Assembly: GCF_004364155.1 (NCBI RefSeq)
Contig: NZ_SOAZ01000026.1
Span: 1-41,716 of the forward strand
Origin: Fonticella tunisiensis
GTDB taxonomy: Bacteria > Bacillota > Clostridia > Clostridiales > Caloramatoraceae
Length of the DNA: 41,716 nucleotides
Direction: 5' to 3'
The notes under the pieces were generated by a model. That model saw only the letters and a program-made list of their open reading frames with translations. It made no database searches and was not told where the DNA came from. Position numbers and translations under genes: made by a program. Positions 1 to 41,716 of this stretch are shown here, piece by piece (positions within the stretch are counted from its first letter, which is position 1; the number at the start of each line of letters is the position of its first letter).

Positions 1-95
1 AGTAATTAAGATGGGCTTAAGGTTAAGTATGGGCTATCTTACCCTATTCAACATGATTTTTCACTAAGTGTTGCATTTAATATTGCAATTTAAGT
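1..95. repeat. Left copy of 95-bp terminal inverted repeat
   Basis: Bases 1-95 are identical to the reverse complement of bases 41622-41716, and the match stops at base 96 on the inner side. Inside the repeat there is a small inverted repeat (TTGCA...TGCAA, about 71-88) and two direct ATGGGCT copies (11-17, 29-35). It contains no gene. It could be the end of an insertion sequence or another dispersed repeat at which an assembled contig stopped on both sides, or a real pair of inverted repeats flanking the locus. Confidence 0.9.
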
Positions 96-119
96 TTAGA
101 TATTTATTATATTGACCTA

Positions 120-148
120 TTGACAGGATATATATATTAATCTATAAT
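120..148 (+). promoter_or_regulatory. Consensus sigma-A promoter of the tRNA unit
   Basis: TTGACA (120-125) is followed after exactly 17 bases by TATAAT (143-148), a perfect match to the vegetative consensus. The expected start of transcription lies about 10 bases before the first tRNA base. It drives tRNA-Met and tRNA-Tyr on the plus strand. Confidence 0.85.
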
Positions 149-165
149 AATAATTGTTAATGCAA

Positions 166-242
166 GGGCCTTTAGCTCAGTTGGTTAGAGCAACCGGCTC
201 ATAACCGGTTGGTCCGGGGTTCGAGTCCCTGAAGGCCCACCA
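166..242 (+). tRNA. tRNA-Met (anticodon CAT)
   Basis: A 77-base cloverleaf: acceptor stem GGGCCTT pairing with AAGGCCC, D arm with GCTCAGTTGGTTAGAGC, anticodon stem ACCGG/CCGGT around the loop CTCATAA, T arm GGGGTTCGAGTCCC, and an encoded CCA end. The anticodon stem lacks the three G-C pairs typical of initiator tRNA, so it is read as elongator Met. A tRNA-Ile with modified CAT anticodon is formally possible but the body resembles the elongator Met type. Confidence 0.93.
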
Positions 243-247
243 TATAT

Positions 248-332
248 GGAGGAGTTCCCGAGTGGTCAAAGGGGGCGGACTGTAAATCCGTTAGCTCAGC
301 TTTCGATGGTTCGAATCCATCCTCCTCCACCA
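248..332 (+). tRNA. tRNA-Tyr (anticodon GTA)
   Basis: An 85-base class II tRNA with a long variable arm. Acceptor stem GGAGGAG pairs with CTCCTCC, the anticodon loop reads CTGTAAA (anticodon GTA), the T arm contains GGTTCGAATCC and the CCA end is encoded. It starts five bases after tRNA-Met and shares its promoter and terminator. Confidence 0.93.
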
Positions 333-368
333 AAAGAAACCTCATTGAACTGAGGTTTCTTTTTTTAT
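333..368 (+). terminator. Rho-independent terminator of the tRNA unit
   Basis: A 10-bp stem (AGAAACCTCA 335-344 with TGAGGTTTCT 351-360) and a 6-base loop are followed by a run of seven T. It begins directly after the CCA end of tRNA-Tyr and closes the two-tRNA unit. Confidence 0.88.
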
Positions 369-403
369 TTGAAAATCATTCTATTGTCTGGTCTTTTTCA
401 TAT

Positions 404-442
404 AAAAATTAGACAGCTTCTTTTATTCCGAAGTTCTCTAAT
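404..442 (-). terminator. Likely terminator after the M20 hydrolase gene
   Basis: On the minus strand, seven bases after the stop codon of the amidohydrolase gene, TTAGA and TCTAA enclose an inner CTTC/GAAG stem with a small internal loop, followed by five T. The hairpin is imperfect but its position fits a terminator that keeps this gene from running into the opposing tRNA unit. Confidence 0.5.
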
Positions 443-448
443 CTTTGT

Positions 449-1624
449 TTACTTTGCTGATAGCTTATCTAAAAAATCATAGGCAATTTTACTCTGAATA
501 AGGCATCCTAAAATTAAACTATCCTCGTCAATATCAAAATAGCTTCCATGTGCAGGATTACAAATTCCCTTAACTTCGTTTCTGCAGCCAAGCTTATAAT
601 AAAGCCCTGGAACTACTTCAGTATAATATGCAAAATCCTCTACTCCCATAGAAGGATATGGTACATCTATAACATCTATTTCTTTCATTTTAGAAGTCAC
701 ATCCTTGAACCAGCAATAGAGCATTTCATCATTGCTGAAGGATGGATAGCCTTCTATAAATTCAACTGAAGCATTTCCCCTATACATCTTTGCAGTAGAT
801 TCTACGATATCTTTTATTCTTTCTTTACAGAATGACCTTAAATCATTTCCAAGGGTTCTAAGTATGCCTTCCATAATTACCTGGCTGCTTACAGCGTTGG
901 GTGCAGTACCTCCACTAATTTTGCCTATTGTTATAACAGCATTATCAACTGCCCTTACCTCACGTGAAATAATGCCCTGTAAATTATCTATTACTTTAGC
1001 TGCAATATATATGCTGTCGATGCCGTCATACGGATGTGCCCCATGGCACCCTTTTCCCTTTATCTCTATTTTGAAAGGATTTGATGCTGCATGTACAACG
1101 CCCCTTTTTATACCCACTGTTCCGGTACTTATGGTTTCATCCATATGAAGGCCTATTATAGCCTCTACACCATTAAGAGCCCCTAATTCGATCATATCCC
1201 TGGCCCCTCCATCGGTTTCTTCAGCAGGTTGGAATATAAGCCTTACAGTTCCATTTAAATGGTCCTCTATTGATTTTAAAACAGCAGCAGCGCCTATTTG
1301 TATCGCTGTATGTGCATCATGACCACATGCATGCATATAACCATTTCTAAGCGATTTATAAGATGTTTCTTTCAAATCGTTTATTTCAAGTGCATCCATG
1401 TCCGATCGTAAAGCTACTATTTTACTTCTATCATTTCCAATTTCTGCAATGATGCCGCTATTATCAAAACGTTTATAAGATATACCCAGTTCATTCAGCT
1501 GACTGCATACTAACTCCGTGGTAAATGGAAGATTACGATCTATTTCTGGATTTTTATGCATTTCCCTTCTGACGTACATCATTCTGTTAAATTGTTTTTT
1601 TGCTTCATTATAAAAATCTATCAT
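449..1624 (-). CDS. M20 family metallo-amidohydrolase
   Basis: The 391-residue product has the M20D amidohydrolase pattern (hippurate, N-acyl-amino-acid or IAA-amino-acid hydrolase type, also indole-acetamide-like deacylases), which removes acyl groups from amino acids in the cytoplasm with two metal ions. Visible motifs are the N-terminal RREMHKNPEI, ALRSDMDAL near residue 75, the metal site HACGHDAHTA near 100, PAEETDGGA near 135, and a C-terminal AHGSYFDID. The length is normal. The start is backed by a GGGGGAGGG ribosome binding site. It is a single gene with its own putative promoter and terminator and is not obviously part of motility. The exact substrate cannot be read from the sequence. 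Confidence 0.9.
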   Translation of the reverse strand: MIDFYNEAKKQFNRMMYVRREMHKNPEIDRNLPFTTELVCSQLNELGISYKRFDNSGIIAEIGNDRSKIVALRSDMDALEINDLKETSYKSLRNGYMHACGHDAHTAIQIGAAAVLKSIEDHLNGTVRLIFQPAEETDGGARDMIELGALNGVEAIIGLHMDETISTGTVGIKRGVVHAASNPFKIEIKGKGCHGAHPYDGIDSIYIAAKVIDNLQGIISREVRAVDNAVITIGKISGGTAPNAVSSQVIMEGILRTLGNDLRSFCKERIKDIVESTAKMYRGNASVEFIEGYPSFSNDEMLYCWFKDVTSKMKEIDVIDVPYPSMGVEDFAYYTEVVPGLYYKLGCRNEVKGICNPAHGSYFDIDEDSLILGCLIQSKIAYDFLDKLSAK

Positions 1625-1741
1625 TAGGTTATACCCTCCCCCTAAGAAATATAAAGTATTGGTTTTAATTTTTGCTTTTACTCATATTGGAATTGTATCT
1701 TTGCAATATTCATGGCCTAGAGGAAGACCGTGATGAAAATG

Positions 1742-1769
1742 ATTATAGCATAAAAATATAAGCTTCCAA
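1742..1769 (-). promoter_or_regulatory. Candidate promoter of the M20 hydrolase gene
   Basis: On the minus strand TTGGAA (1764-1769) is followed after 16 bases by a perfect TATAAT (1742-1747). The -35 box sits inside the hairpin that ends the flagellar operon, so terminator and promoter overlap. The -10 box is strong and the -35 box is weak. Confidence 0.45.
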
Positions 1770-1776
1770 AGGAAGC
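1748..1776 (-). terminator. Weak terminator at the end of the flagellar operon
   Basis: A 6-bp stem (GCTTCC/GGAAGC, 1762-1776) with a 3-base loop is followed on the minus strand by TTATATTTTTAT. It lies 10 bases after the stop of the TPR gene. The T tract is interrupted, so termination may be leaky. Confidence 0.5.
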
Positions 1777-1785
1777 CGATTAAAA

Positions 1786-2238
1786 TTAGGAAACTTTTTT
1801 TATAAATTCCAGTAGAAATTTTTCAATACTATATAGTTCAGGATCTTCAATTATTGATATACAGCTTTTCATAATCCTGTAAGCCTTTTTTATGTCCCCA
1901 TTTTTATAGTATATATATGCTAAATTGATATAACTATTTTTAAAATTTCTATTCAATCTAATGGATGAAGTAAAGGCCTTCTCTGCATTTTTGAAATCCC
2001 ATAATTCCATGTATGTAACTGCCATGTTATAATACAAAAGATAATGTTCTAAACCGTATTTTTTAGCCAGATTAAAAAATATCAGTGATTTTGGCAGATT
2101 TCCTTCCGCATAATAACATAAACCCGTGTAATAATGATATTTTTTTAAGTTATCCTTAAAAAATTTGTTAATCATTTCCTTGGCGTGTTTATATTTGCTA
2201 TTCCTAATTAAATTTAACACTAATTCGTCGTATTCCAT
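1786..2238 (-). CDS. TPR-repeat protein, last gene of the flagellar run
   Basis: The 150-residue product is made of tetratricopeptide-like helical pairs: clear repeats at about residues 32-65 (YHYYTGLCYYAEGNLPKSL), 66-99 (YNMAVTYMELWDFKNAEKAF) and 100-133 (YINLAYIYYKNGDIKKAYRI). No signal peptide or membrane segment is seen, so it is likely a cytoplasmic protein-binding scaffold. It follows flgG by 68 bases on the same strand and precedes a terminator, which suggests co-expression with the flagellar genes, but a long hairpin covering its ribosome binding site lies between them. I do not recognise a named family; a role in flagellar assembly is only inferred from position. Confidence 0.75.
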   Translation of the reverse strand: MEYDELVLNLIRNSKYKHAKEMINKFFKDNLKKYHYYTGLCYYAEGNLPKSLIFFNLAKKYGLEHYLLYYNMAVTYMELWDFKNAEKAFTSSIRLNRNFKNSYINLAYIYYKNGDIKKAYRIMKSCISIIEDPELYSIEKFLLEFIKKVS

Positions 2239-2240
2239 AG

Positions 2241-2292
2241 AAAAACCCCTCTTAAGTATTCCTTTAGATTATATACTTTAAGAGGAGTTTTT
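2241..2292 (-). promoter_or_regulatory. Long hairpin covering the TPR gene ribosome binding site
   Basis: In the minus-strand transcript, bases 2292-2273 pair with 2259-2241 to form a stem of about 18 bp with one G-U pair and one bulged A, and a 13-base loop. The 3' arm contains AAGAGGGG, the ribosome binding site of the TPR gene seven bases before its ATG, and ends in TTTTT. The element can therefore act as a terminator after flgG, as a block on translation of the TPR gene, or both. Confidence 0.65.
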
Positions 2293-2306
2293 ATTCCAAT
2301 TTATTA

Positions 2307-3050
2307 TTATTTATTCCTTAAATTGTTTGCAATCTGCCACATTTCATCTGCACTTTTAATAGTCCTTGAGCTAAGTTCAAAGGCCCTCTGGGTTATCATC
2401 ATGTCCGTCAATTCCTTAGTTATATCAACGTTTGAACTTTCTAAAAAACCCTGCTTGACTTTTCCATTCGATTCAATAATCTGAGTGGCTCCACTGAATA
2501 GATTTTCTCCTGATGACATCATATTATCCTTATCGATAAAATTATATAAATTGATTTTTCCAATCCGTACACCATTGGAGTAAATCTCACCCTTTTCATT
2601 GATTGCAAAAGGCTCTTTTAAATTCTGAGGTTGAAAGCCTTCTATATCAAGTATTAAACCCGACGAATGTACGAAATTCCCACTTCCATCAATATGAAAT
2701 GATCCATCTCTTGTATAGTATTCATTTCCATCTCCATCAATTAATCTGAAATAACCGCTGCCTTCTATGGCAATATCTCCACTTCTTCCTGTATTCAACA
2801 AAATACCCTGGTTCTGATTTCTAACCAATATGTCAGCTCTGCTGCCCGTACCTGCAATCGTTTCATTTCCGTCAGCAGATGTTAGGGGAACGCCTTTTCT
2901 ATTGACTGTCTCATAGAATATGTCTCTAAATGCTACGTCCACCCTTTTATAACCGTTTGTTTCTGCATTTGCTATATTGTTGGAAATGGCATCTAGCCTG
3001 TTTTGATTTGAATAGAGCCCGGTCCTTCCATTCCATAAAGCCCTCAACAT
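2307..3050 (-). CDS. flgG: Flagellar basal-body rod protein FlgG-type
   Basis: The 247-residue product belongs to the FlgE/F/G family that forms the distal rod. The N-terminal rod signature MLRALWNGRTGLYSNQNRLDAISNNIANAETNGYKR is shortened here: key residues are the NNIANAETNGYKR block at about 27-39. The C-terminal FSSNVDITKE-type block with TDMMITQRAFELSS matches the conserved coiled-coil end. A hook-family middle (AIEGSGYFRL, YTRDGSFHID) is present. Start ATG has GAGGTGAT upstream. It is the second of two tandem rod genes; which of the pair is functionally FlgF and which FlgG cannot be settled from sequence alone. Confidence 0.88.
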   Translation of the reverse strand: MLRALWNGRTGLYSNQNRLDAISNNIANAETNGYKRVDVAFRDIFYETVNRKGVPLTSADGNETIAGTGSRADILVRNQNQGILLNTGRSGDIAIEGSGYFRLIDGDGNEYYTRDGSFHIDGSGNFVHSSGLILDIEGFQPQNLKEPFAINEKGEIYSNGVRIGKINLYNFIDKDNMMSSGENLFSGATQIIESNGKVKQGFLESSNVDITKELTDMMITQRAFELSSRTIKSADEMWQIANNLRNK

Positions 3051-3063
3051 ATTATCACCTCTA

Positions 3064-3834
3064 TTATCTTATACTCCCAACCTCATTTACAGTTTTGCCT
3101 AAAGTCTCATCCATTTGCTGAACTACTTTTTGGCTGGATTCATAACTTCTCATGATTGAAATCATTTGTGTAACAGATTCAATAGCATCGACGTTTGATT
3201 TTTCAAGTGCCTTCTGACTAACATTTCCAGATGAAACGCTGGAAGCTTCGTTTACCGACTTAAACATATTATTCCCTTCTTTTATTAAATCGCTTACATT
3301 ATCAAATCTGCTGATGCAAAACTTTACATTCCCTTCGCTGTTTTCAATAGTTCCATCCTTTGAAAGAGTAATATTGTCATTTAAAAGTTTTATAGGCGTC
3401 TTTCTTCCATTTTCATCGATTCCTAAAATTATATTACCTTCCATGGTAGCCAGATATCCATCCTGATTTATTTGAAACCTTCCGTTTCTAGTATACCTCT
3501 CTGTTCCATCCTCTCCCAGTACAGTAAAAAAACCATCTCCGTTTATAGCAAAGTCAAGGTCGCGATCTGTATCCTCTATAATCCCCTGAGAAAAGTTAGT
3601 TTTACTTTCATCTATACCAACGCCAAATTCCATAGTACCTAAAACACGTCTGAAACTTTTGGATCCTATTTGCCTGTCCCTGTTTTCAATCAAAAGCTCG
3701 TCAAATGATTTAAGGGCCATTTCATCCTTTTTAAAACCAGGTGTATTAATATTTGCAATGTTATTGCTTAGGTTTTCCAACTGAATCTGTCTTGTAATCA
3801 TTCCTGAAGCAGCCGTATATAAACCTCTTATCAA
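3064..3834 (-). CDS. flgF: Flagellar basal-body rod protein FlgF/FlgG-type
   Basis: The 256-residue product is a rod/hook family protein exported through the flagellar type III gate. It begins with IRGLYTAASGM and the NNIANINTPGFKK signature at about residues 25-37, has the AINGDGFF and YTRNGRFQI blocks in the middle and ends in a conserved helix containing KSNVDAIESVTQMI. The start codon is TTG, supported by AGGAGGG nine bases upstream; that site overlaps the stop codon of the small ORF before it. It is paralogous to the next gene (FlgG-type). It would form part of the rod linking MS ring and hook. Confidence 0.87.
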   Translation of the reverse strand: MIRGLYTAASGMITRQIQLENLSNNIANINTPGFKKDEMALKSFDELLIENRDRQIGSKSFRRVLGTMEFGVGIDESKTNFSQGIIEDTDRDLDFAINGDGFFTVLGEDGTERYTRNGRFQINQDGYLATMEGNIILGIDENGRKTPIKLLNDNITLSKDGTIENSEGNVKFCISRFDNVSDLIKEGNNMFKSVNEASSVSSGNVSQKALEKSNVDAIESVTQMISIMRSYESSQKVVQQMDETLGKTVNEVGSIR

Positions 3835-3845
3835 TTCAATCCCTC

Positions 3846-4001
3846 CTATTTGGTGTCATTTTTGAAAAAAGCCTTTATTTCATCCTCATACCTCATTCCA
3901 AGATCCCTTGCCTGTTTTTCAATCACATACTTTGGTATGTTTCGCGGGAAATATGACAGCATTAGAAGAGTTGCTATGATAAGTCCCAGGCCGAAACCCA
4001 A
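3846..4001 (-). CDS. Small single-span membrane protein (51 codons)
   Basis: A 51-codon frame fills the gap between the SwrB-like gene and flgF. It begins with TTG seven bases after AAAGGA and encodes a hydrophobic N-terminal segment (GFGLGLIIATLLML) followed by a charged tail with VIEKQARDLGMRYEDEIKAFF. Its TAG stop overlaps the ribosome binding site of flgF, which suggests translational coupling and supports it being a real gene. The frame extends further upstream without a standard start codon. The tail resembles short motifs (IIExAxxLGM) I associate with small membrane-anchored proteins of Firmicutes, but I cannot name a family or a function. Confidence 0.55.
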   Translation of the reverse strand: MGFGLGLIIATLLMLSYFPRNIPKYVIEKQARDLGMRYEDEIKAFFKNDTK

Positions 4002-4030
4002 AATAAAATCCTTTTTTTGGGAATAAGTTT

Positions 4031-4444
4031 TTATAATTCTTTTTGCTTTCTTAAACCAATTCTTAATAGGACTTCACCCTTTCCCATATTTAAAATAGAA
4101 CAGATTTCCTCTATTGACTTTCCTTCATCATAAAGTTTATATATTTGAGAATTTTTATCGTTATGACTTGCTGTTAAAGAGCGCTTTACATTTTTTGATT
4201 CTTTAATTTCTACATCTGATGTATCTTTAATTTCCCTATCGCCTAATAGAAGAATCGCTTTTTCAATTTCCTCAACTCTTATTGTCAGTTCGCTTATAGT
4301 TTTTTTTAACTCTGATATTTCGTCTTTATTAATTTCTTTATTTAAGATATTATGGAAATTCATTTCCCTTTCTTGATGGTTACTGTTATTTTTAAGAGAT
4401 ATATAAATCAATATTAATCCAACAATTAGAATAACATATGGCAT
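4031..4444 (-). CDS. SwrB/DUF6115-like membrane-anchored protein
   Basis: From the ATG at 4444, preceded by GGAGGAAACT, the product has 137 residues: one N-terminal transmembrane segment (YVILIVGLILIYISL), a charged coiled-coil stretch around residues 40-75 and a C-terminal helix-turn-helix-like end (IYKLYDEGKSIEEICSILNM). An earlier in-frame ATG would add seven residues but lacks a good ribosome binding site. The architecture and position directly after sigD match Bacillus SwrB (YlxL), which promotes flagellar basal-body maturation. Sequence identity to SwrB is expected to be low, so the link rests on layout and architecture. Confidence 0.65.
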   Translation of the reverse strand: MPYVILIVGLILIYISLKNNSNHQEREMNFHNILNKEINKDEISELKKTISELTIRVEEIEKAILLLGDREIKDTSDVEIKESKNVKRSLTASHNDKNSQIYKLYDEGKSIEEICSILNMGKGEVLLRIGLRKQKEL

Positions 4445-4467
4445 AGTTTCCTCCATAAATAACATCT

Positions 4468-5199
4468 TTACAAAGTATATTTCAACTTTTTCAGATTTTC
4501 TCTTATCCTAATGATAGCTCTGCTGTGAAGCTGAGACACCCTTGACTCTGAAATATCGAGTACTTTTCCTATTTCCTTTAATGTCAATTTTTCCTCATAA
4601 TAAAGGTTTAATATAATTTTATCCTTTTCGGGCAGCATACCTATAGCTTTCTTTAGAACATCAAACAGTTCCTTTTCCTCCATTATTTTATCTGGCTGTG
4701 GGCTGGTTTCATCCTCTACCATATTTTTGAAATGTAGATCATCCTCATCGGATTTAAAAAATACCTCATCAAGGGAAATTATAGAAACATAATTAACATA
4801 AGACTGAATGTTTCTCAGCTCTCCAACATCTATATTCATATAGGATGCAAGTTCGTCCTCCGATGGGTCCCTGCTCAACTTAAGCTCCAGTGCTTCCCTT
4901 GCCTGGTTAAGAAGTGAGAGCTTTGAAAATGCACTCTTTGGAATCCAGCTTATTTTTCTAAGCTCATCAATAATCGCACCTCTTATGCGAAGTGTCGCAT
5001 AGGTTTCAAACTTTAAACCTTTAGAAGAATCAAACTTTTCAATTGCATCTATAAGTCCAAGTATTCCAAAACTAACGAGATCATCAAATTCAATCCCTGG
5101 AGGTTTTCCCACTACAAGCCTTGAAGCTATATACTTAACATAGGGAATATATTTCAAAATCATCTCTTCCCTCTCATCAAACTGTTGATAACATTTCAT
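4468..5199 (-). CDS. sigD: RNA polymerase sigma factor SigD (sigma-28, FliA/WhiG family)
   Basis: The 243-residue product has the three regions of sigma-28 factors: region 2 (YIASRL, FDDLVSFGILGLIDAIEKFD, GLKFETYATLRIRGAIIDELR), region 3 (PSEDELASYMNI) and region 4 with a helix-turn-helix (LTLKEIGKVLDISESRVSQLH). It directs RNA polymerase to late flagellar promoters of the TAAAGTTT-N11-GCCGATAA type; two such sites occur in this window (before flgM and flaG). AGGGGGGAT lies before the ATG. It sits near the end of the long early operon, as in Bacillus, and is expected to be held inactive by FlgM, encoded here. Confidence 0.95.
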   Translation of the reverse strand: MKCYQQFDEREEMILKYIPYVKYIASRLVVGKPPGIEFDDLVSFGILGLIDAIEKFDSSKGLKFETYATLRIRGAIIDELRKISWIPKSAFSKLSLLNQAREALELKLSRDPSEDELASYMNIDVGELRNIQSYVNYVSIISLDEVFFKSDEDDLHFKNMVEDETSPQPDKIMEEKELFDVLKKAIGMLPEKDKIILNLYYEEKLTLKEIGKVLDISESRVSQLHSRAIIRIRENLKKLKYTL

Positions 5200-5210
5200 C
5201 GTTATCCCCC

Positions 5211-5873
5211 CTATCTCAGCAATTTGCTCTGTTCACGGAATTTGCTGAAAATAAACCTGATAATCTTATCCCTGAGCTTTTCTTCAATACTTTCAAATTT
5301 TAAGGCTATTCTATAATGCCTGTTTATCTGACTATATTCTGTTCGCATAACAGTACCTATGATGGTTAACTCTTCAGGAATATGAATTGACAAAACGATT
5401 TTTTGCCCTTTTTTGGGGTTATGTTTTGATATTATTTTGACTCCGCCCCCGCTTAGATCCACTGTCAAAGTTTTTTTCATTCTTTTTAAATATCCAGATG
5501 GTACATCCTGTAAATCTATATAAGTATTATCCTCTGGAAGGATGATGTATTTTGCCTCCATTGATATTGGAAGCCTGAAGTATTCTCTTCTTTGTACTCT
5601 TTCTATAACAACAGGTTTGCTCAGAACCGCCATATGTATATTATTTTCTGAGGTCCTACCCACAACAATAGATTTACATTTTACAACGTCCCTTTCAGTA
5701 CAAATAAAAAATTCAAGAGTGCTTCCAGTATGCATGGAATAATATTTTATTCCAGAGTACGGCATATTTATCAGTATGGAATCATCCCTGATATCCTGTA
5801 TGTTACACTTATAAGCAATGTTGTTGTCCAGTATTTCCAATTTCTGATTTATTTTAAAATTCAATTCATCCAT
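5211..5873 (-). CDS. YcgR-like PilZ domain protein (c-di-GMP receptor)
   Basis: The 220-residue product has an N-terminal YcgR-type beta domain (about 1-95) and a C-terminal PilZ domain (about 96-215). The cyclic di-GMP binding residues are intact: an RxxxR motif in QRREYFRLP and DLSGGGV (D/NxSxxG). Proteins of this layout brake or modulate the flagellar motor when c-di-GMP is high, acting on MotA or the switch. Start is supported by GGGGAGATG just before it, four bases after flhG. Its position between flhG and sigD is common in clostridia. Binding of c-di-GMP is inferred from the motif. Confidence 0.88.
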   Translation of the reverse strand: MDELNFKINQKLEILDNNIAYKCNIQDIRDDSILINMPYSGIKYYSMHTGSTLEFFICTERDVVKCKSIVVGRTSENNIHMAVLSKPVVIERVQRREYFRLPISMEAKYIILPEDNTYIDLQDVPSGYLKRMKKTLTVDLSGGGVKIISKHNPKKGQKIVLSIHIPEELTIIGTVMRTEYSQINRHYRIALKFESIEEKLRDKIIRFIFSKFREQSKLLR

Positions 5874-5876
5874 TTG

Positions 5877-6734
5877 TCATCTCCCCATTATCCTTAATAA
5901 TCTACTAAAGTAATCCTTCATGGAGCTGCTTTTTTGACTGCTGCTCTTTCCCAAAAGCTCAGATGATATTTTATGGATGCATATACTTGCTTCACACCTG
6001 GGATATGTTATTATGAAGGGCTTTTGTTCCCTTACTGCTTGTCCAACTTTTTGATCATCTGGTATATAACCAAGGTATTTTATTTCTCTTCCTATAAAGG
6101 CATCCACAGTTCTTTTTAGTTTATCGAAAGTATCTCTAGCGTCTTTTATATTCCTTGCCCTATTTATAACAACGTTTATATTGCTATTTATGTTCCCTTT
6201 GAGTACTACTTTTATTAAACTATAGGCATCGGTTAAAGCAGTTGGTTCAGAATTTGTAACAATTACTACCACATCGGCAACTTCGATAAAATTTAAAACA
6301 GTACTTGACATGCCTGCTCCAGTATCTACAAGAAGGATGTCTATATCATGCAGTTTTTCAAATTCTTTTATTAACTTTTTACGCATATCAGCATCTAATT
6401 CCGACAGTTCCTTTATGCCCGAACCTCCAGGTATCACTACTATCCCATCATCAGTTAAAACCATAACTTCATTAATCTCTTTGTTGTTATGTAAAATATC
6501 ATAAATACTATATTCTGCATTAATACCATATAAAATATCAACGTTTGCCATACCAAAGTCGGCATCTAGTACAGCTACTTTCATTCCCCTTTTTTTTAAA
6601 GAAGATGCAAGATTAATAACAAGATTTGTTTTACCTACTCCACCCTTACCGCTTGATACGGTAATAACTCTAAATTTATAATTTTTACCGTTTTTTATAT
6701 TTACTAGTTGTCTTAACTTCTCTGCCTGATCCAT
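5877..6734 (-). CDS. flhG: MinD-like ATPase FlhG (YlxH)
   Basis: The 285-residue product is a ParA/MinD-type ATPase with a deviant Walker A motif SSGKGGVGKT at about 27-36, DADFGMANVD for switch I, and DILLVDTGAG for the Walker B region. FlhG controls flagellar number and placement with the GTPase FlhF, whose gene overlaps it by one base upstream. An N-terminal QAEKLRQLV stretch resembles the DQA(x)xLR segment that activates FlhF GTPase. The C-terminus may bind membrane through the basic helix FSRLLRIM. Start has GGAGCTG upstream. Confidence 0.92.
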   Translation of the reverse strand: MDQAEKLRQLVNIKNGKNYKFRVITVSSGKGGVGKTNLVINLASSLKKRGMKVAVLDADFGMANVDILYGINAEYSIYDILHNNKEINEVMVLTDDGIVVIPGGSGIKELSELDADMRKKLIKEFEKLHDIDILLVDTGAGMSSTVLNFIEVADVVVIVTNSEPTALTDAYSLIKVVLKGNINSNINVVINRARNIKDARDTFDKLKRTVDAFIGREIKYLGYIPDDQKVGQAVREQKPFIITYPRCEASICIHKISSELLGKSSSQKSSSMKDYFSRLLRIMGR

Positions 6735-7804
6735 CAGTTTTCAGCTCCTATTATAAGTTTTGACAGCCTGTTTAAATCCGCCTCCTCAATATCATCCGGT
6801 ACATTCTGGCCGGTTGATATATAGGAAACAGGCATATCGCTGTAATATATGGATGCTAAAATAGATCCATAAGAGTTCGTCTCATCAACTTTGGTAAGAA
6901 TTAGGCTATTATAATTTGTAACCTTATAATCCTCAATTATCCTTTTAAGATCCTTTTGCTTTGTTGTCATACTGAGTACAAGGTGTACAGTATCAGGGTT
7001 GATTTCATTTATAAAACTTCTTATTTCAGAAACCTGCATTGCATTTTTACTGTTTCTTCCTGTAGTATCTACAAGAATAACATCACAATCGCTCATTCTA
7101 TTAATTGCTTTTGATAGATCCCTGGCAGATATCACTACGTCAAAAGGGATTCCAAGGATTTCGCTGTATGTTTTTAGCTGTTCAACAGCTCCAATTCTAT
7201 AGGTATCTATAGTAATGAGTCCTACCTGTTTGTTCTTGTATAGGGTATAAAGACTTGCAAGCTTGGCTATTGTTGTAGTTTTTCCAACACCTGTAGGTCC
7301 AACAAGAACCTGAACTCTATTTGAAAAATTATTATTTATTTTAATCATTTCATTCAAAATATTTTTAAACTCCTTTTCATAATGGCTCACCGTAAGCTTT
7401 TTATCCCTGTTTTTTTCCCTTATCCTGCTAAAAATTACCTCAGCGATTTCCTCTGGAATATCGTTTTCTATTAACTTTAACTTAAATTTGCTTTTGCCTG
7501 TTTTTTTACCTTTACCGTATTCATATTTAGAAGGTATGTTTGGGGTTATTACACTTTGTAGCATTGTTTTAAGTTCTAAAATCTCATTCTGGAATAATTT
7601 ATTATGTTCTTCTAGTTCCTTATTTTTTTTGCTCCTATCGTCAACTGCTGCAGTTACTTCAAGCTTTCTTGGTTTAAATAAGCCCAGTGGCCCTTTTTGT
7701 TTTATTTTCCTCTGGCTTACAATTACTGCGTCACTTCCAAGCTCATACCTTATTTTAATCATTGCTTCATTCATATTATCAACGATATATCTTTTAATAA
7801 TCAT
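6734..7804 (-). CDS. flhF: SRP-type GTPase FlhF
   Basis: The 356-residue product has the FlhF N-terminal domain (MIIKRYIVDNMNEAM, ELGSDAVIVSQR), a basic, variable linker, and an SRP-family NG domain with G1 VGPTGVGKTTTIAKLA at about 167-182, GLITIDTYRIGAVEQL, DVILVDTTGR and a TKVD G4 motif. It recruits early basal-body parts to the site of assembly. It overlaps flhA by four bases (ATGA) and flhG by one base, a tight translationally coupled set. Regulation by FlhG is expected from the family. Confidence 0.95.
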   Translation of the reverse strand: MIIKRYIVDNMNEAMIKIRYELGSDAVIVSQRKIKQKGPLGLFKPRKLEVTAAVDDRSKKNKELEEHNKLFQNEILELKTMLQSVITPNIPSKYEYGKGKKTGKSKFKLKLIENDIPEEIAEVIFSRIREKNRDKKLTVSHYEKEFKNILNEMIKINNNFSNRVQVLVGPTGVGKTTTIAKLASLYTLYKNKQVGLITIDTYRIGAVEQLKTYSEILGIPFDVVISARDLSKAINRMSDCDVILVDTTGRNSKNAMQVSEIRSFINEINPDTVHLVLSMTTKQKDLKRIIEDYKVTNYNSLILTKVDETNSYGSILASIYYSDMPVSYISTGQNVPDDIEEADLNRLSKLIIGAEN

Positions 7805-9867: not shown

Positions 9868-9878
9868 TAACTTCCTCC

Positions 9879-32102: not shown

Positions 32103-32114
32103 ATTAAAGCCCTC

Positions 32115-32827: not shown

Positions 32828-32880
32828 TTTATCACTCCCTGGCTTTGTGTTATTTACACCGCTCAGCTCCGCTATATAAT

Positions 32881-32907: not shown

Positions 32908-32909
32908 GC

Positions 32910-32940
32910 AAAAAGTCTGCGGGTTATTTTCCCTGCAGAC
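32910..32940 (-). terminator. Terminator at the end of fliY
   Basis: GTCTGCAGGG pairs with CCCGCAGAC (9 bp plus a bulged A, 7-base loop; 32915-32940) and is followed by five T. The 5' arm is made of the last codons of fliY. On the other strand a run of T also follows, so it may work both ways. It separates the chemotaxis block from the sigma-D operon. Confidence 0.85.
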
Positions 32941-34979: not shown

Positions 34980-34989
34980 AATATCCCTC

Positions 34990-35382
34990 CTAACTGTTTA
35001 ACAACATTTCTCCCTCCAAAAGTGTTACAATATAATCCTTAAAATTTATAACACCCTTTATATATCCTGAAGACTCCGATATCCTTTCAATCATGTCGTT
35101 CTGGATATCAACCACTTCATGTACGTTATCAACTAGAAGCCCTATTCGCTCGTCGTCTATTTCAACTATTATAATGTTTTCCTCTTCTTTTACATATTCT
35201 ATATTCAGATATGCCTTTAAATCAAGTATCGAAATTATATTGCCTCTTAAGTTTACAAGGCCTTTGATGTAGTAAGGTGCCGTTGGGACCCTGGTTATAC
35301 TCATAACTTTTTCGATTCCATGCACAAGCTTTGTGTCAAGAGCATACTTTTCATTGCCAAGAGTAAAAACAATAACCTGCAC
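34990..35382 (-). CDS. cheW: CheW-like coupling protein, second copy
   Basis: The 130-residue product is a single CheW domain: VIVFTLGNEKYALDTKLVHGIEKV, RVPTAPYYIKGLVNLRGNIISILDL and GLLVDNVHEVVDI. It links receptors to CheA. The start is GTG with AGGAG eight bases before it; an overlapping ATG is in another frame. Its place between cheY and fliM differs from the first cheW at the operon head, so the two may serve different receptor groups; that is inference. Confidence 0.93.
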   Translation of the reverse strand: MQVIVFTLGNEKYALDTKLVHGIEKVMSITRVPTAPYYIKGLVNLRGNIISILDLKAYLNIEYVKEEENIIIVEIDDERIGLLVDNVHEVVDIQNDMIERISESSGYIKGVINFKDYIVTLLEGEMLLNS

Positions 35383-35393
35383 TCATATCACTC

Positions 35394-35753
35394 CTAACCC
35401 AGAACCTTCTTAATGGATTCAATAACTCTATCTGGTTGAAAAGGCTTCACTATAAAGTCCCTTGCTCCCGATTTAATCGCTTCCATAACCATAGCCTGCT
35501 GCCCCATGGCAGAGCACATTATTATTTTGGCGTTTGGATCGATCCTTTTTATTTCTTTAACGGCCTGGATACCATCCATTTCAGGCATTGTAATATCCAT
35601 TGTGACTATATCGGGTTTTTCAGATTTATAGATTTCGACAGCCTTTATACCGTTTGGTGCTTCACCGCATATTTCAAAACCATTTTTTGTTAATATATCC
35701 TTTAACATCATTCTCATAAATGCAGCATCATCAACGATTAATATTTTTGCCAT
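35394..35753 (-). CDS. cheY: Chemotaxis response regulator CheY
   Basis: The 119-residue product is a lone receiver domain with acidic pair D8/D9, phosphorylation site D53 (TMDITMPEMDG), the CSAMGQQ switch Ser and K in VKPFQ. It carries the signal from CheA to FliM and FliY. AAGGAGGTC precedes the ATG. Confidence 0.96.
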   Translation of the reverse strand: MAKILIVDDAAFMRMMLKDILTKNGFEICGEAPNGIKAVEIYKSEKPDIVTMDITMPEMDGIQAVKEIKRIDPNAKIIMCSAMGQQAMVMEAIKSGARDFIVKPFQPDRVIESIKKVLG

Positions 35754-35765
35754 TTTTTGACCTCC

Positions 35766-36365
35766 TTAGTTTAACCCCAATTTAGTTAGTATTATATCCA
35801 GTGAACCTGGTTTAGGTATATAGAAAAAGTTGCCTCCTGATTTTTTTCCATCTTCTATAAAGTTAGTATCTATTGCCAGTACATAGTCGCTGTATTGTTG
35901 TGCATCCATAAATGAGGAGCTAAGTACCGCTGCAAGCATATCAATTGAAATTGCAGGTACAGATGTTAATAAGCTTAAAGATGTTAGTCTGGAAATTGCA
36001 TTAATATATGAATTTCCAAGTATGTTACCAACTTCTTGGAAAAGGGATAAATATATTTCATCGGTTACTTCACTAAAGCCACCGAGAATGGTCTCAGCAA
36101 ACTCCTGTGCCTTATCCTGTTTCATCAAAAATAATATATTTCCAGGCGCATCTCCAAACACCTTGAGCAATACAGCAACTACTATTTCTTCTTCAGTACC
36201 AACTCTTTTTATCATATCTTCAAATGAAAGTATATTAACCTGCGGTAGAGACATATCTATTCTTTTTCCCATCATCTGCGACAGGGCAGTAGCAGAATTA
36301 CCAGCACCTATGTTTCCAACCTCCCTAAGGGCATCCAGCTGGATTTCACTCAATTTCCTATCCAA
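35766..36365 (-). CDS. cheC: CheY-P phosphatase CheC
   Basis: The likely start is a TTG at 36365, with AGGTGA four bases before it and 13 bases after the cheA stop, giving 199 residues, the usual CheC length. A longer open frame reaches back into cheA (to 36446) without a good ribosome binding site. Both active-site motifs are present: LREVGNIGAGNSATAL (E15, N18) and FQEVGNILGNSYINAI. CheC removes phosphate from CheY-P and forms a regulatory complex with CheD, encoded in the same operon. Confidence 0.9.
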   Translation of the reverse strand: MDRKLSEIQLDALREVGNIGAGNSATALSQMMGKRIDMSLPQVNILSFEDMIKRVGTEEEIVVAVLLKVFGDAPGNILFLMKQDKAQEFAETILGGFSEVTDEIYLSLFQEVGNILGNSYINAISRLTSLSLLTSVPAISIDMLAAVLSSSFMDAQQYSDYVLAIDTNFIEDGKKSGGNFFYIPKPGSLDIILTKLGLN

Positions 36366-36378
36366 AATATCACCTACT

Positions 36379-38337
36379 TTATACAAGAGCCGCCACATCA
36401 AGTATAAGGGTAACAAATCCGTCACCAAGTATAGTTGCACCGACATATTCCTTGAGGTTTTGCAGTATCTTTCCCATTGATTTTATAACCACTTCCTGTT
36501 GTCCAAATAAAGAATCAACTAAAAGCCCGACAGTTCTTTCTCCAACATTTACGATTACTACAAATTTTTCATCATTGTCATCTTCAACCAGATTTAACCT
36601 TCTAGCCACTCTGACTAAAGGTATAACGTTTCCTCTGTATATAATAACTTCTCTATTGTTGGTTTTCTTTATTTCATTTGTATTTATATTTATTACTCTG
36701 TCTATAAAACCTAGAGAAATAGCAAAGGTTTCTCCACCAACCTTTACAAGAAGAGCCTGTATAATAGAAAGTGTAAGGGGAAGCCTGATAACGAAGCTTG
36801 TACCCTTTCCAATTTCGCTTATAACGTCAATTGTTCCTCCAAGGGATGAAATTTTAGTTTTAACGACATCCATACCAACTCCACGGCCTGATATATCCGT
36901 TACCTTATCCCTTGTGCTGAATCCATTCATAAAGATTAAATTTTTGATATCAGAGTCACTCATACCTTCAGTATCTATCCCTAGGCTCTGTGCCTTTGAT
37001 TTTATTTTCTCGACATCCAGGCCCCTTCCATCATCTTCAACCCTGATTACAGCCTTATTTCCTTCCTGGTAAGCGATTAACCTAATCGTGCCTTTAGACG
37101 GCTTTCCCTTTTTCAATCTTTCATCGCTCGGTTCAATACCATGATCCGCAGAGTTTCGTATTAAGTGTACTAAAGGTTCCCCTATCTCGTCAATTACTGT
37201 TCTGTCCAGTTCTGTATCTTCACCCTTTATAACAAGCTCTATATCCTTATTTAATTCCTGCGATAAATCCCTTACCATTCTTGGAAATCTGTTAAATACC
37301 CTTTCAATGGGAAGCATTCTAATCTTCATAACCAGATCTTGAAGATCCGATGTAATTCTCCCAACCTGCTCAAGCGTTTCATGAAGATCGACAAGCTTAT
37401 GGCTGCTGCTTATCTGTTCAAGCCTTGTCCTATGGATAACAAGCTCTCCAACAAGATTCATAAACTTATCAAGCCTTTCAAGGTCAACCCTAACTGACTG
37501 ATGAACCTTTTTAAAAGACTTTTCCTCTTCCCTGCGGCTTTCCTGTACCTTATCGTTTTCACGGACTGCCACAGCAACTTCTGCAGCTGCTTCATCATTC
37601 TTTCTTTTTGAAATTTCCTGTATGTTAACGCTTTCAATTTCAGATATTCCTTCAATTATTTTCTTTACATCATCACTGCTTTTCTGAGTAATGAATATTA
37701 TGCTGAAGGAATTGTTGAATTTTTCCTGTTCAAGTTCCTCAATGGTAGGTATGGTCTTTATGATTTCACCAATATCCTCCAGAGCCTTATATACTAAAAA
37801 TGCCCTTGCAGATTTTAGTATACAGTCACTATATAAAGTTATATCAGCCTTTAATACGTTATAATTCTTATCCTGTGCCTGTTTTATGATGTTTTTGTCA
37901 TATTCATTTAGTTCAAGTTCAAAAATATCCTTTTTAATTCCAGGCCCTTCTTTTGTTTTTTCTGACTCTATACATTCAATTAAACTTATGATTTCCTGAA
38001 GATCTACATGTTCATTTTTATCATTTTGTATATTATCTATCATTATTTCAAGAGTATCAAGGCACTTAAACAGAAGTGTTATAACATCAGTGGTTACCTC
38101 CAGCTCGTCATTCCTAAATTTATCCAGTATATTTTCCATCCTATGTGTTAACTCCGCTATATCACTAAAACCCATGCTGCCAGCCATACCCTTTAGAGTA
38201 TGTGCTACTCTAAAAATAGAATTTATCGTTTCCTTATCCTGAGGGTTTTTTTCAAGCAAAAGTATGCCTTCGTTTAGATTCTGCAGATTTTCATGGGATT
38301 CTTCCAGAAATATATCAAAATACTGCGACATATCCAT
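36379..38337 (-). CDS. cheA: Chemotaxis histidine kinase CheA
   Basis: From the ATG at 38337, with GGGAGGG seven bases upstream, the product has 652 residues. P1 carries the phosphorylated H46 (RVAHTLKGMAG), a P2-like CheY-docking part lies at about 145-245, P3 dimerisation near 285-345, P4 kinase has the N box (HLIRNSADHGIEP), G1 (VEDDGRGLD) and G2 (GRGVGMDVVK), and P5 is the CheW-like end. All catalytic motifs are intact. The start codon is one base after the cheR stop. Confidence 0.96.
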   Translation of the reverse strand: MDMSQYFDIFLEESHENLQNLNEGILLLEKNPQDKETINSIFRVAHTLKGMAGSMGFSDIAELTHRMENILDKFRNDELEVTTDVITLLFKCLDTLEIMIDNIQNDKNEHVDLQEIISLIECIESEKTKEGPGIKKDIFELELNEYDKNIIKQAQDKNYNVLKADITLYSDCILKSARAFLVYKALEDIGEIIKTIPTIEELEQEKFNNSFSIIFITQKSSDDVKKIIEGISEIESVNIQEISKRKNDEAAAEVAVAVRENDKVQESRREEEKSFKKVHQSVRVDLERLDKFMNLVGELVIHRTRLEQISSSHKLVDLHETLEQVGRITSDLQDLVMKIRMLPIERVFNRFPRMVRDLSQELNKDIELVIKGEDTELDRTVIDEIGEPLVHLIRNSADHGIEPSDERLKKGKPSKGTIRLIAYQEGNKAVIRVEDDGRGLDVEKIKSKAQSLGIDTEGMSDSDIKNLIFMNGFSTRDKVTDISGRGVGMDVVKTKISSLGGTIDVISEIGKGTSFVIRLPLTLSIIQALLVKVGGETFAISLGFIDRVININTNEIKKTNNREVIIYRGNVIPLVRVARRLNLVEDDNDEKFVVIVNVGERTVGLLVDSLFGQQEVVIKSMGKILQNLKEYVGATILGDGFVTLILDVAALV

Positions 38338-38338
38338 G

Positions 38339-39115
38339 TTAATTCCCTCCCGGCTTTTTATATATAAATGTGGAAGCTTTTTCAAACCCTAGTTCTCGAT
38401 AATTAAATATGCTCTCTGTAGCCCCTACAAAAAGAAGTCCGCCTGGCTTTAATGATTTATAAAACCCTTTATATATTTTGTTTTTTGCCTCCTGAGTAAA
38501 ATAAATAACCACATTCCTGCATACAATTAAATCGAAATTTTCTTCATATCTATCCTGTATAAGATCATGCCTTTTAAAATTAACCCGGGATTTTATATCA
38601 TCTTTAATTTCATATTTGTCTTCACGGATGTTGAAATACTTTCTTAGAATATCGATGTCAACGTTTTTTATATCGTTTTTAGTGTATATGCCGCGTTTTG
38701 CAGTTTCAAGTATTGTTATGTCTATGTCCGTTGCAATGATTTGATGCCTTCTTCCCGGGGTAAGTCTGTCTAAAATAATAGCAAGTGTATATGGCTCTGC
38801 ACCATTTGAACAGCCCGCGCTCCATACCTTTATAGGGCATGTGGTTTGGCTTGTCATTTCCCTGAGCTTGTCCTCTAAATCCATAAATATTTCTTTATTT
38901 CTGAAGAATTCGGATACGTTTATGGTTAGATGATCCCTGAATTTTTTGTTTAAAAGGTTGTCACCTTTCAAACGTATTATGAACTCATTTTCATTTATTG
39001 CGCCTATGCGTGACATAAAGCTTTCTATCCTTCTTGTAAGCTGCTTTGATTTATATGCACTTAAGTTTATGCCATACTCCCTTAATACAAATTCTTCAAT
39101 TCTTTGAAACTCCAA
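38339..39115 (-). CDS. cheR: Chemoreceptor methyltransferase CheR
   Basis: The 258-residue product has the CheR N-terminal helical domain (1-70) and an S-adenosylmethionine-binding domain (WSAGCSNGAEPYTLAI, IIATDIDITIL, DLIVCRNVVIYFT). It methylates receptor glutamates. The start codon is TTG, with AGAGGACG before it, four bases after cheB. It would act against CheB in adaptation. Confidence 0.95.
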   Translation of the reverse strand: MEFQRIEEFVLREYGINLSAYKSKQLTRRIESFMSRIGAINENEFIIRLKGDNLLNKKFRDHLTINVSEFFRNKEIFMDLEDKLREMTSQTTCPIKVWSAGCSNGAEPYTLAIILDRLTPGRRHQIIATDIDITILETAKRGIYTKNDIKNVDIDILRKYFNIREDKYEIKDDIKSRVNFKRHDLIQDRYEENFDLIVCRNVVIYFTQEAKNKIYKGFYKSLKPGGLLFVGATESIFNYRELGFEKASTFIYKKPGGN

Positions 39116-39119
39116 ATTA

Positions 39120-40160
39120 TCACGTCCTCTTAACCATTTTAACTATTTCATCGCATATTCTGTAGTCTGGCAGCACCATATCAACACATCCCGTTTCAAA
39201 TGCAGCCTTTGGCATTCCATAAACCGTTGATGTAGCCTCGTCCTGAGCTATTACTAGTCCACCCCTTTCCTTAATAGCCTTAACTCCTGCAGCACCATCC
39301 TTGCCCATTCCTGTTAGAACAACTCCAAGTACATTTCCATTATAACTTTCAGAGGCAGAAATAAAGAGTTTATCAGCGGCAGGCCTTACCCCATGTAACG
39401 GTGGAGTCGTATCCAATTTGATTTTATCTTTTTTTATAAGCATATGGTATCCTCCCGGGGCTATATAAACGCAATTCTGCCTTATGATATCTCCATCCTT
39501 CGCTTCAACAACATCAAGACTGCTGCTGCTATTTATCCTCTCCGCAAATGCCTTGGTAAAACCAGGAGGCATATGTTGAACTACAAACACTGGTATACCC
39601 AATTTTTCGGGCAGCCTAGTTATTACATCGTAAAGAACTCTTGGACCACCGGTAGATGCTCCAAGTACTAAAGCGTTTATGACTCTATTTCTGCTCAGAG
39701 TTGATATGAATACCCTATTTTCATTAAGATTTCTGACGGAGGATTTAATTTTTTTTAGATGGCCCTTTGCATATCTGATTTTTTCAACTAAATCCTCCTT
39801 AACCTTATCAATATCTAAGGATATAGAACCGGATGGTTTCTGGATGAAGTCGAAGGCTCCAAGCCTCAGGGCCTCTATCGTTATTAATGAACCTTCAGCA
39901 GTTAAGCTGCTGACCATTACAACCTGACTTTTAGAAATTTCTTTAATGATCTTCAATGCCTCAAGCCCATTCTTTTTGGGCATTTCTATATCTAAAGTTA
40001 TAACATCAGGTGATAAAGCCTGGGCTTTTAATATAGCCGACTCCCCATCCTTTGCCGTGTCAATAACTGTCATATCTGGCTGGCTGTTTATCATATCAGA
40101 AATCATTTTCCTCATAAAGGCTGAATCATCTACAACAAGCACTTTTATTTTTTCAAACAT
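39120..40160 (-). CDS. cheB: Chemoreceptor methylesterase/deamidase CheB
   Basis: The 346-residue product has a receiver domain (1-125; D11/D12, D57 in LDIEMPKKNG) and a methylesterase domain (about 155-345) with the Ser site GASTGGPRV, the His site VQHMPPGFTKAFAERI and the Asp site TGMGKDGAAG. Once phosphorylated by CheA it removes methyl groups from receptors. AAAGGAGTTG precedes the ATG, and cheD ends two bases before. Confidence 0.96.
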   Translation of the reverse strand: MFEKIKVLVVDDSAFMRKMISDMINSQPDMTVIDTAKDGESAILKAQALSPDVITLDIEMPKKNGLEALKIIKEISKSQVVMVSSLTAEGSLITIEALRLGAFDFIQKPSGSISLDIDKVKEDLVEKIRYAKGHLKKIKSSVRNLNENRVFISTLSRNRVINALVLGASTGGPRVLYDVITRLPEKLGIPVFVVQHMPPGFTKAFAERINSSSSLDVVEAKDGDIIRQNCVYIAPGGYHMLIKKDKIKLDTTPPLHGVRPAADKLFISASESYNGNVLGVVLTGMGKDGAAGVKAIKERGGLVIAQDEATSTVYGMPKAAFETGCVDMVLPDYRICDEIVKMVKRT

Positions 40161-40162
40161 AG

Positions 40163-40651
40163 CTACAACTCCTTTATACCCTTTCCAGCTGTTCTTATGT
40201 ATACCTTACCAGTTTCAGCCTCGACAATCATTGTCCTTCCAAAATTACCTCCAGTATCCTCCGCAATTAACGATATATTGTTTTTTGACAATACGCTCAT
40301 TACTGATTTTACGTTTCTGCTTCCAATGTCCAATATAGAATTTTTATCTGTAAAGGAAAACATGCTTGCACCTCCAGCTATCTTGGCTCTTAGGCGAACT
40401 CTACTTGCTCCCTTTTCAAGCATTTTATCTATCAAAATTGGAATTGCAGCATCTGCAAACTTCATGGGATTTTTTTGGTTTTTAAAACATGAACTATCAG
40501 GAAGCATTATGTGCGCAAGCCCGGCAACCTTGCTGATACTATCGTATAGCGCTATACCAACACAGGAGCCAAGGCCAAGAGTTATTAATCTATATGGCGG
40601 CAAAGCAACATTCAAATCACCTATTCCAACTTTTATGTCCTTTTCATCCAT
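40163..40651 (-). CDS. cheD: Chemoreceptor glutamine deamidase CheD
   Basis: The 162-residue product has the CheD catalytic region: Cys in TLGLGSCVGIALYD (C30) and His in AGLAHIMLPD (H47). It deamidates receptor glutamines and is controlled by CheC and CheY-P. Length is normal and GGAGAGATATT lies before the ATG. Presence of both CheC and CheD marks the Bacillus-type adaptation scheme. Confidence 0.96.
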   Translation of the reverse strand: MDEKDIKVGIGDLNVALPPYRLITLGLGSCVGIALYDSISKVAGLAHIMLPDSSCFKNQKNPMKFADAAIPILIDKMLEKGASRVRLRAKIAGGASMFSFTDKNSILDIGSRNVKSVMSVLSKNNISLIAEDTGGNFGRTMIVEAETGKVYIRTAGKGIKEL

Positions 40652-40665
40652 AATATCTCTCCAAT

Positions 40666-41121
40666 TTATTGTGATAATGTTTCCAGATTGTTTAGCTCTT
40701 CCTTTGTTAATATGCTCAGTGTGTCAATTAAAATAATAATCCTTCTGTCAAGTTTTATCATTCCTGTGACATACTTATTTGATATTCCTTTTACGATATC
40801 AGGAGCAGATTCAATATTCTCTTCTGATATGTCAATGACCTCGGATACCATGTCCACAATTAGACCAATGCTTTTATTATCATTTTTCACCACGATTATT
40901 TTAGAATCATTCTTTATTTCATTGCTGCCTATGTTTAGTCGCTTTCTTAAATTCATTATAGGCAATATTCCATCCTGATATCTTATAACACCAACTATGT
41001 AATCCGGAGAATCAGGTACTCTTGTAGGTTCTATGTATCCGAGTATCCTTTCAACCTCCATTATATCAGCTGCAAAATATTCCTCATCGATTTTAAAGAC
41101 AACCACTTTCTTTTCATTCAT
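40666..41121 (-). CDS. cheW: Chemotaxis coupling protein CheW, first copy
   Basis: The 151-residue product is a full CheW domain: VVVFKIDEEYFAADIMEVERILG, RVPDSPDYIVGVIRYQDGILPIMNL and SIGLIVDMVSEVIDI. AAAGAGGTGG precedes the ATG. It is the first gene of the chemotaxis block in this window; no promoter before it is convincing. It differs clearly from the second CheW at 34990-35382. Confidence 0.93.
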   Translation of the reverse strand: MNEKKVVVFKIDEEYFAADIMEVERILGYIEPTRVPDSPDYIVGVIRYQDGILPIMNLRKRLNIGSNEIKNDSKIIVVKNDNKSIGLIVDMVSEVIDISEENIESAPDIVKGISNKYVTGMIKLDRRIIILIDTLSILTKEELNNLETLSQ

Positions 41122-41223
41122 ATTACCACCTCTTTAGTTTTAGTTTTCCTATAATAAGTTCACCTTCGAACATATATGTTTATCGCATTTCTTACAGGAT
41201 ATTCGATCTTATATATCTGCTCA
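41122..41223 (-). promoter_or_regulatory. Leader of the chemotaxis block with a 12-bp palindrome
   Basis: The region upstream of cheW holds a perfect palindrome AACATATATGTT (41169-41180) next to a sigma-D-like -10 element TGCGATAA (minus strand, 41180-41187), whose -35 partner is poor (4 of 8). A weak sigma-A pair TTGCAC/TATATA with an 18-base spacer lies further upstream. Either may start the che block; the palindrome could bind a regulator. Confidence 0.3.
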
Positions 41224-41381
41224 TTAAATGAAAGTGCAATATTTTTGATAAACGGTTTCAATCTCTATTTTTCCATCCTTACATACACAGATCCTTACTG
41301 TTTTGGCAGCAGTATACCGTTATAACTAAAGCCCTATATTGTAATAATCGACTTTTCCTCCCACTTCTAGAGGCTTTTTTT
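41224..41381 (-). pseudogene. Frameshifted gene remnant upstream of cheW
   Basis: No intact frame is present, but three short open stretches on the minus strand read as one protein if two single-base shifts are allowed: PLEVGGKVDYYNIG, SYNGILLPK and TVRICVCKDGKIEIETVYQ, the last ending at a stop at 41224. The last junction is in an A run, a common slip site. I do not recognise the family. It may be a decayed gene disturbed by the nearby repeat; chance cannot be excluded. Confidence 0.3.
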
Positions 41382-41407
41382 ATACTCGGCTGTAAAAATA
41401 TTTTATT

Positions 41408-41570
41408 TTAATCATAGGGGTTAATTGGTTCAGGTACTCCGGTGATTTTTCTTATTACTTCTTTTACCCTGACCTTTAAATTCTATTTCTTTATACTTTA
41501 TTAAAGTCTTCGAAGATGTTTTATGTTCTGCGTATTTAACATAATATCCTTTTATGTACAAAATTTTAAA
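41408..41570 (-). pseudogene. Second frameshifted gene remnant near the right repeat
   Basis: On the minus strand a frame without a good start reads YIKGYYVKYAEHKTSSKTL and IKYKEIEFK, then the coding-like text moves to another frame and ends VKEVIRKITGVPEPINPYD at a stop at 41408. A single-base change would join them. No ribosome binding site is seen. The protein is not recognised. It lies between the first remnant and the 95-bp repeat. Confidence 0.3.
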
Positions 41571-41621
41571 CTATATTTTTTACTCTTTAAAATTCAACTT
41601 TTTTTAACAAATTATTTTTGT

Positions 41622-41716
41622 ACTTAAATTGCAATATTAAATGCAACACTTAGTGAAAAATCATGTTGAATAGGGTAAGATAGCCCATACTTAACCTTAA
41701 GCCCATCTTAATTACT
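41622..41716. repeat. Right copy of 95-bp terminal inverted repeat
   Basis: The last 95 bases are the exact reverse complement of bases 1-95. The identity ends sharply at the inner side (41621), and the outer limit is the window end, so the true repeat may be longer. See the left copy for content. Confidence 0.9.

Follow-up and report, generated by a model that had tools for sequence, protein, structure and literature searches.

The analysed contig of Fonticella tunisiensis was found to end on both sides in a multicopy IS30-family insertion sequence (IS): each end is the right terminus of one copy, and the assembly stopped there. The window, meaning the whole stretch of DNA that was analysed, is the complete contig C26 (41,716 bp) of a draft genome with 64 contigs and 3.10 Mb. 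With a multicopy IS such a contig end is ordinary in itself; the unexpected part is the choice of target, because the element shows a fixed geometry relative to promoters, long target-site duplications and insertion in either orientation. We hold with high confidence that the best joint explanation is two separate IS30-family insertions of opposite orientation at the window ends, together with frequent insertion at a fixed offset from promoters, which would be guided by RNA polymerase or promoter DNA.

Bases 1–95 of the window equal the reverse complement of bases 41622–41716 exactly, and the two sequences diverge from base 96. A 95-base match of the ends is far beyond chance. The first-pass annotation, which had described exact 95-bp inverted repeats at both ends, was confirmed in this respect and needs only a refinement: the biological repeat is 94 bases long, and base 95 matches by chance because two different flanking duplications both start with T. 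Copy A occupies positions 1–94 on the plus strand, with its terminal inverted repeat TGTTGCATTTAATATTGCAATTTAAG at 69–94 and the rest of the element beyond the contig; it was recognised by the end match and by comparison with the genome and with the family relative G005. Copy B, recognised by the end match, occupies positions 41623–41716 on the minus strand in the opposite orientation.

Querying this genome with the 95-bp sequence yielded 18 matches; all were near full length except one of 31 bp. Nine of the 17 right ends were identical to the window copy, two were 95% alike (on contigs C37 and C51) and six were 89–90% alike. The genome also contained 14 left ends: ten were cut after about 89–93 bases at contig ends, three lay in longer pieces that also reached a contig end, and one (on C6) was internal. 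The contig stopped after 91–95 IS bases in 15 of the 17 right-end copies, those on C37 and C51 running on, and the outer limit of the repeat was thus set by the assembly. The near-constant stop point at both IS ends probably reflects the overlap length of the assembler. No complete IS copy was present among the 32 element matches listed for the genome, the longest being 815 bp.

In G005, whose genome is closed, the same right end terminates an element of 1.34 kb. Ten copies fetched from that genome were more than 99% alike and carried an IS30-family transposase, which scored 280 bits against NF033563 (cut-off 80), matched HTH_38 and rve in Pfam, and showed the triad D197, D258 and E292, that is D..D-33-E. 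In the IS30 family, the last D and the E of the DDE triad are spaced by 33 residues. The terminal inverted repeats, left GGTTCATTGTAAAATTAAATGCAACAG and right TGTTGCATTTAATATTGCAATTTAAG, are imperfect inverted copies of each other of about 26–27 bp. In the window genome the repeat comes after a transposase fragment on C37, and the transposase fragments scored 38–76 bits against NF033563, none of them above the cut-off of 80. Since the same end closes the transposase-carrying element in G005, sequence comparison assigns the 95-bp sequence to an IS30-family element as its right (3′) end, and we infer that both flanking copies are full length (about 1.34 kb). A plasmid search for transposase relatives returned 763 records, all below 60% identity.

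The preferred reading of the first-pass annotation, that the contig ended on each side in a copy of a dispersed repeat, was therefore right, and the whole-genome search that it had proposed, with many copies and a transposase as the mark of an IS end, identified the repeat as such an end. It had also considered that the repeat might be a short assembly overlap with no biological meaning. The nearly constant stop point, 91–95 bases into the IS, fits a pure assembly overlap, but the inner boundary of the repeat consists of a terminal inverted repeat and then target-site duplications, and the same element is found whole in the closed genome of G005. These features contradict an overlap without a biological repeat, which we regard as scarcely credible.

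Directly inside the two IS ends lie target-site duplications. At the start of the window, positions 95–108 (plus strand) carry TTTAGATATTTATT (14 bp), which is repeated exactly at the left IS end at the start of C6. At the other end, positions 41608–41622 carry TACAAAAATAATTTG, read on the minus strand from 41622 to 41608, which is repeated exactly at the left IS end at the start of C21. The window start thus pairs with C6 and the window end with C21. Throughout the genome, an exact direct repeat of 14–15 bp at the IS boundary paired 11 of the 14 left ends with exactly one right end each; in a chance control of 28,000 random placements, the longest match was 10 bp. Exact duplications were also found in relatives, of 13–14 bp in eight of ten copies in G005 and of 14–16 bp in all four copies tested in Thermobrachium celere DSM 8682 (G011), which is placed in the same family as the window genome. 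Duplications of 14–15 bp can therefore order the contigs of a fragmented draft genome without long reads.

For three left ends and seven right-end matches, the 31-bp match included, we found no duplication partner. The unpaired IS ends were L151 (end of C31), L154 (start of C46), L143, L006, L025, L005, L013, L011 and L016. Their partners may be missing from the assembly or may have been changed by rearrangement.

Judged from the duplications, the window was flanked at the time of insertion by C6 on the side of base 1 and by C21 beyond base 41716. The join with C6 is supported by gene order in relatives: in 13 of 16, the CotS-type gene that comes first on C6 and the amidohydrolase gene that comes first in the window share a contig and are no more than about 2.2 kb apart. 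The junction was absent from G002, in which the two genes are on different contigs, from G007, in which the best CotS match is elsewhere, and from G014, in which no amidohydrolase match was found; in G016 the CotS-type and amidohydrolase matches were broken. For the other side, the first C21 gene and cheD were together in none of the eight relatives holding both genes. This junction is not conserved, so that the evidence for joining the window to C21 is the duplication, which indicates that the two were already joined when the IS landed.

Between the insertions, positions 449–41121 (minus strand) hold a host chromosomal locus from the amidohydrolase gene through flagellar genes to cheB, cheD and cheW; the closed G005 genome shows the same order of its end genes. 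The amidohydrolase gene was found in 15 of 16 relatives and cheD in 13 of 16. Seven relatives carry both on one contig, 38–58 kb apart and in the same relative orientation; in the others the two genes are on different contigs or one is missing. Considering this occurrence of the end genes and the shared orientation in seven relatives, the motility locus is ancestral.

The first-pass annotation had raised mobility of the locus as a unit, in which case the 41.7-kb motility segment would be a composite transposon moved by its two flanking IS copies. This idea draws on the presence of two inverted copies of one IS at the flanks. Such a transposon should have one duplication shared by its outer ends, but each flanking copy has its own, different duplication. 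The end genes are moreover present in 15 and 13 of the 16 relatives, on one contig and in the same order in seven, and the left neighbour is ancestral in 13 of 16. These findings contradict the proposal, which we consider extremely unlikely. Since each copy has its own duplication, copies A and B are better read as separate insertions that face each other.

Both right ends face the window and form inverted repeats of possibly 1.34 kb, and recombination between them could flip the 41.5-kb locus. The first-pass annotation had suggested such an invertible segment, but the suggestion gained no support, and no inversion was observed. The duplications and the left-end gene order in relatives give the ancestral orientation and nothing indicates inversion, while contigs alone cannot reveal the present orientation. 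An invertible segment is therefore a very improbable account of the window.

Near cheW, positions 41135–41406 (minus strand) contain a decayed remnant of a gene that we take to be FapA/DUF342-like, recognised by scattered collinear matches (best E 1e-4). The gene is intact upstream of cheW in G005 and G009, and a search for it elsewhere in the window genome gave one distant match of 29% identity. Since only collinear remnants survive at this position, the gene order near cheW has changed in the lineage of the window.

All promoters described here are sequence predictions. At the start of the window, a perfect promoter (TTGACA-17-TATAAT, 12/12) was predicted at positions 120–148 on the plus strand, with its −35 box 25 bp from the IS end. 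It reads into a tRNA-Met gene (166–242) and a tRNA-Tyr gene (248–332) on the same strand, which are followed by a terminator-like hairpin at 332–363. The perfect −35 and −10 boxes had also been considered as a possible small-RNA promoter; this was dropped, as two tRNA genes come after them. At the other end, a promoter-like sequence (TTGAAT-16-TATAGT, 9/12) was predicted at positions 41570–41597 on the minus strand toward cheW, and its −35 box is again 25 bp from the IS end. This cheW-facing promoter is weak and lies in an AT-rich stretch with nine promoter-like matches against 3.5 expected. Insertion B has predicted promoters on both sides, one on the cheW side of the window and one in C21.

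To score promoters, a TTG start, at least 4/6 matches in each box, at least 8/12 in total and a spacer of 16–18 were required, and the offset was defined as a −35 box lying 25 bp from the right end of the IS or 26 bp from the left cut point (25–26 bp on the left). Among 59 flanks from three genomes, TTGAC occurred 14 times within 60 bases reading outward, 11 of them at one fixed position, and none pointed inward at that position. An outward promoter stood at the offset in 9 of the 11 paired insertions of the window genome, in 2/10 insertions of G005 and in 3/10 of T. celere; at other offsets the paired-insertion test gave means of 0.05–0.11 and a maximum of 2. In the pooled distinct flanks, promoters at the offset numbered 12 of 77 on the right and 9 of 39 on the left (means elsewhere 0.29 and 0.15), and 11 and 7 under a stricter −10 rule.

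The offset had been discovered by inspection and p-values from the discovery set are biased, so the data were split and held-out flanks were used. On the right, 5 of 46 held-out flanks carried a promoter at the offset (mean elsewhere 0.24, maximum 3, p about 5e-6). On the left it was 1 of 11, with p values of 0.04 for the promoter, 0.06 for TTGA and 0.15 for TTG. The right flanks thus replicated the signal clearly, the left flanks weakly. In further genomes, TTG stood at the offset in 4/8 right flanks of Clostridium thermopalmarium (G023) and in 1/8 of Clostridium acetireducens; among copies with the same inverted-repeat tip, it was found in 0/5 in Halanaerobium salsuginis and 0/5 in Acetivibrio mesophilus. 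The specificity is not strict, as 8/10 insertions in G005 and 7/10 in T. celere miss the promoter criterion, and the promoter signal is weaker in the relatives than in the window genome.

Besides the tRNA-Met and tRNA-Tyr pair, IS copies at the offset were found at the promoters of two tRNA operons, Leu-Met-Met (C31) and Glu-Val-Asp-Thr (C2), of two T-box leaders (C27, and C50 before cysK), and of htpG (C41) and an acylphosphatase gene (C39). Further targets are the cheW side of the window, the first C21 gene and one site on C9. The recA promoter on C6 carries a truncated, unpaired IS copy with stops (L143, C6:31046-31860) at the usual offset. Two of the 11 paired insertions failed the promoter test: one at the tRNA-Trp promoter (C41) had a −35-like box one base off, and at the C1/C37 pair no promoter was seen. 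The promoter of the tRNA Leu-Met-Met operon is occupied both in the window genome (L150, start of C31) and in G005 (L117). Because the −35 box is at the same offset and the IS orientations are opposite, the two insertions are most simply explained as independent.

A solitary 31-bp copy of the right tip (L024, C3:90225-90255) is internal to its contig and has TTGACT at the offset, but a poor −10 box; it is possibly the remnant of an old insertion.

The fixed offset might simply be the result of selection, insertions elsewhere near promoters having been lost. The surviving insertions do lie before tRNA operons, recA, htpG and cysK, where disruption is probably costly. Harmlessness, however, would permit any distance beyond about −60 and not one base position, and the neighbouring offsets are near background. 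We consider selection an improbable source of the offset.

The transposase might also read a TTGAC-containing DNA motif and not a working promoter. TTGA is indeed the strongest feature at the offset (12/77 right and 10/39 left flanks). Nevertheless, a good −10 box is much commoner there than at other TTG sites, with a mean match of 5.1 of 6 against 3.1–3.3 for TTG sites elsewhere, and for this reason real promoters are favoured over a bare hexamer. A motif reader therefore seems unlikely, though less so than selection.

The two cuts, about 10–11 and 25 bp upstream of the −35 box, would fall near −46 and −60 of the promoter. The duplicated stretch would lie between them, where the upstream element and the rear edge of a bound polymerase are located. 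On either side of the IS, a sigma70-type −35 box often starts 10–11 bp past the duplication. We propose that RNA polymerase bound at the promoter, or the promoter DNA itself, guides the transposase. Insertion would then leave the promoter and its upstream element intact, and the IS could settle harmlessly before tRNA operons and essential genes. Guidance by promoter-bound RNA polymerase would account for the precise spacing, for the −10 box that goes with it and for the variety of targets; selection alone does not account for a single-base position. In its full form, the proposal is that an IS30-family transposase independently evolved RNA-polymerase-guided integration, inserting at about −60, duplicating the upstream-element stretch and colonising tRNA operons, T-box genes, recA, htpG and a motility operon with their promoters unbroken; we give this an even chance of being correct.

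The element resembles IS30 of E. coli in its transposase family (NF033563), the DD(33)E triad and the terminal inverted repeats of about 26–27 bp. IS30 makes 2-bp duplications, according to the part of the literature consulted (PMC9333248), whereas the element here makes duplications of 14–15 bp and targets a promoter offset. The 2-bp duplication of IS30 is thus lacking here, and as a criterion it is not strict, given the long duplications of IS1630. This IS30-type element of Mycoplasma fermentans is described, in the portion of the source consulted, with 27-bp inverted repeats and, for four of its seven copies, duplications of 16, 23, 25 and 26 bp, and a title in the reference list of the same paper presents it as targeting inverted repeats of variable length (PMC3317919). 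Long duplications are common to both elements, but here their length is near constant. A palindromic target as in IS1630 was ruled out, the duplications being no more palindromic than shuffles (0.317 versus 0.330 ± 0.030, 23 sites).

Promoter targeting is described for other transposons in the sections consulted of one paper: TnGBS/ISLre2 elements (p-MULT 3) insert upstream of sigmaA promoters in one orientation, 15–17 bp from the −35 box, ISKra4-type elements (p-MULT 4) lie at a fixed distance upstream of sigmaA promoters on either side, and the transposases of both belong to the Mutator superfamily (PMC3942029). The element here shares with them the fixed distance upstream of the −35 box and, with the ISKra4-type, promoters on either side; it differs in the distance, which is 25 bp and not 15–17 bp, and in its IS30 transposase (HTH_38, rve), which is not of the Mutator type.

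In yeast, Ty3 and Ty1 are retrotransposons that settle near tRNA genes via RNA polymerase III factors. The likeness to the element here is that the transcription machinery determines a safe insertion site, which is often at tRNA genes; the difference is that Ty3 and Ty1 are retrotransposons and use polymerase III factors.

Among the titles and abstract openings of open-licence PMC papers that we surveyed, none described promoter targeting by an IS30-family element. The insertion points described here follow promoters at single-base precision, in a family for which no such report was found. If confirmed, promoter-guided integration would have arisen separately in another family of bacterial DDE transposons, and the element would offer a simple IS for testing how a transposase senses RNA polymerase.
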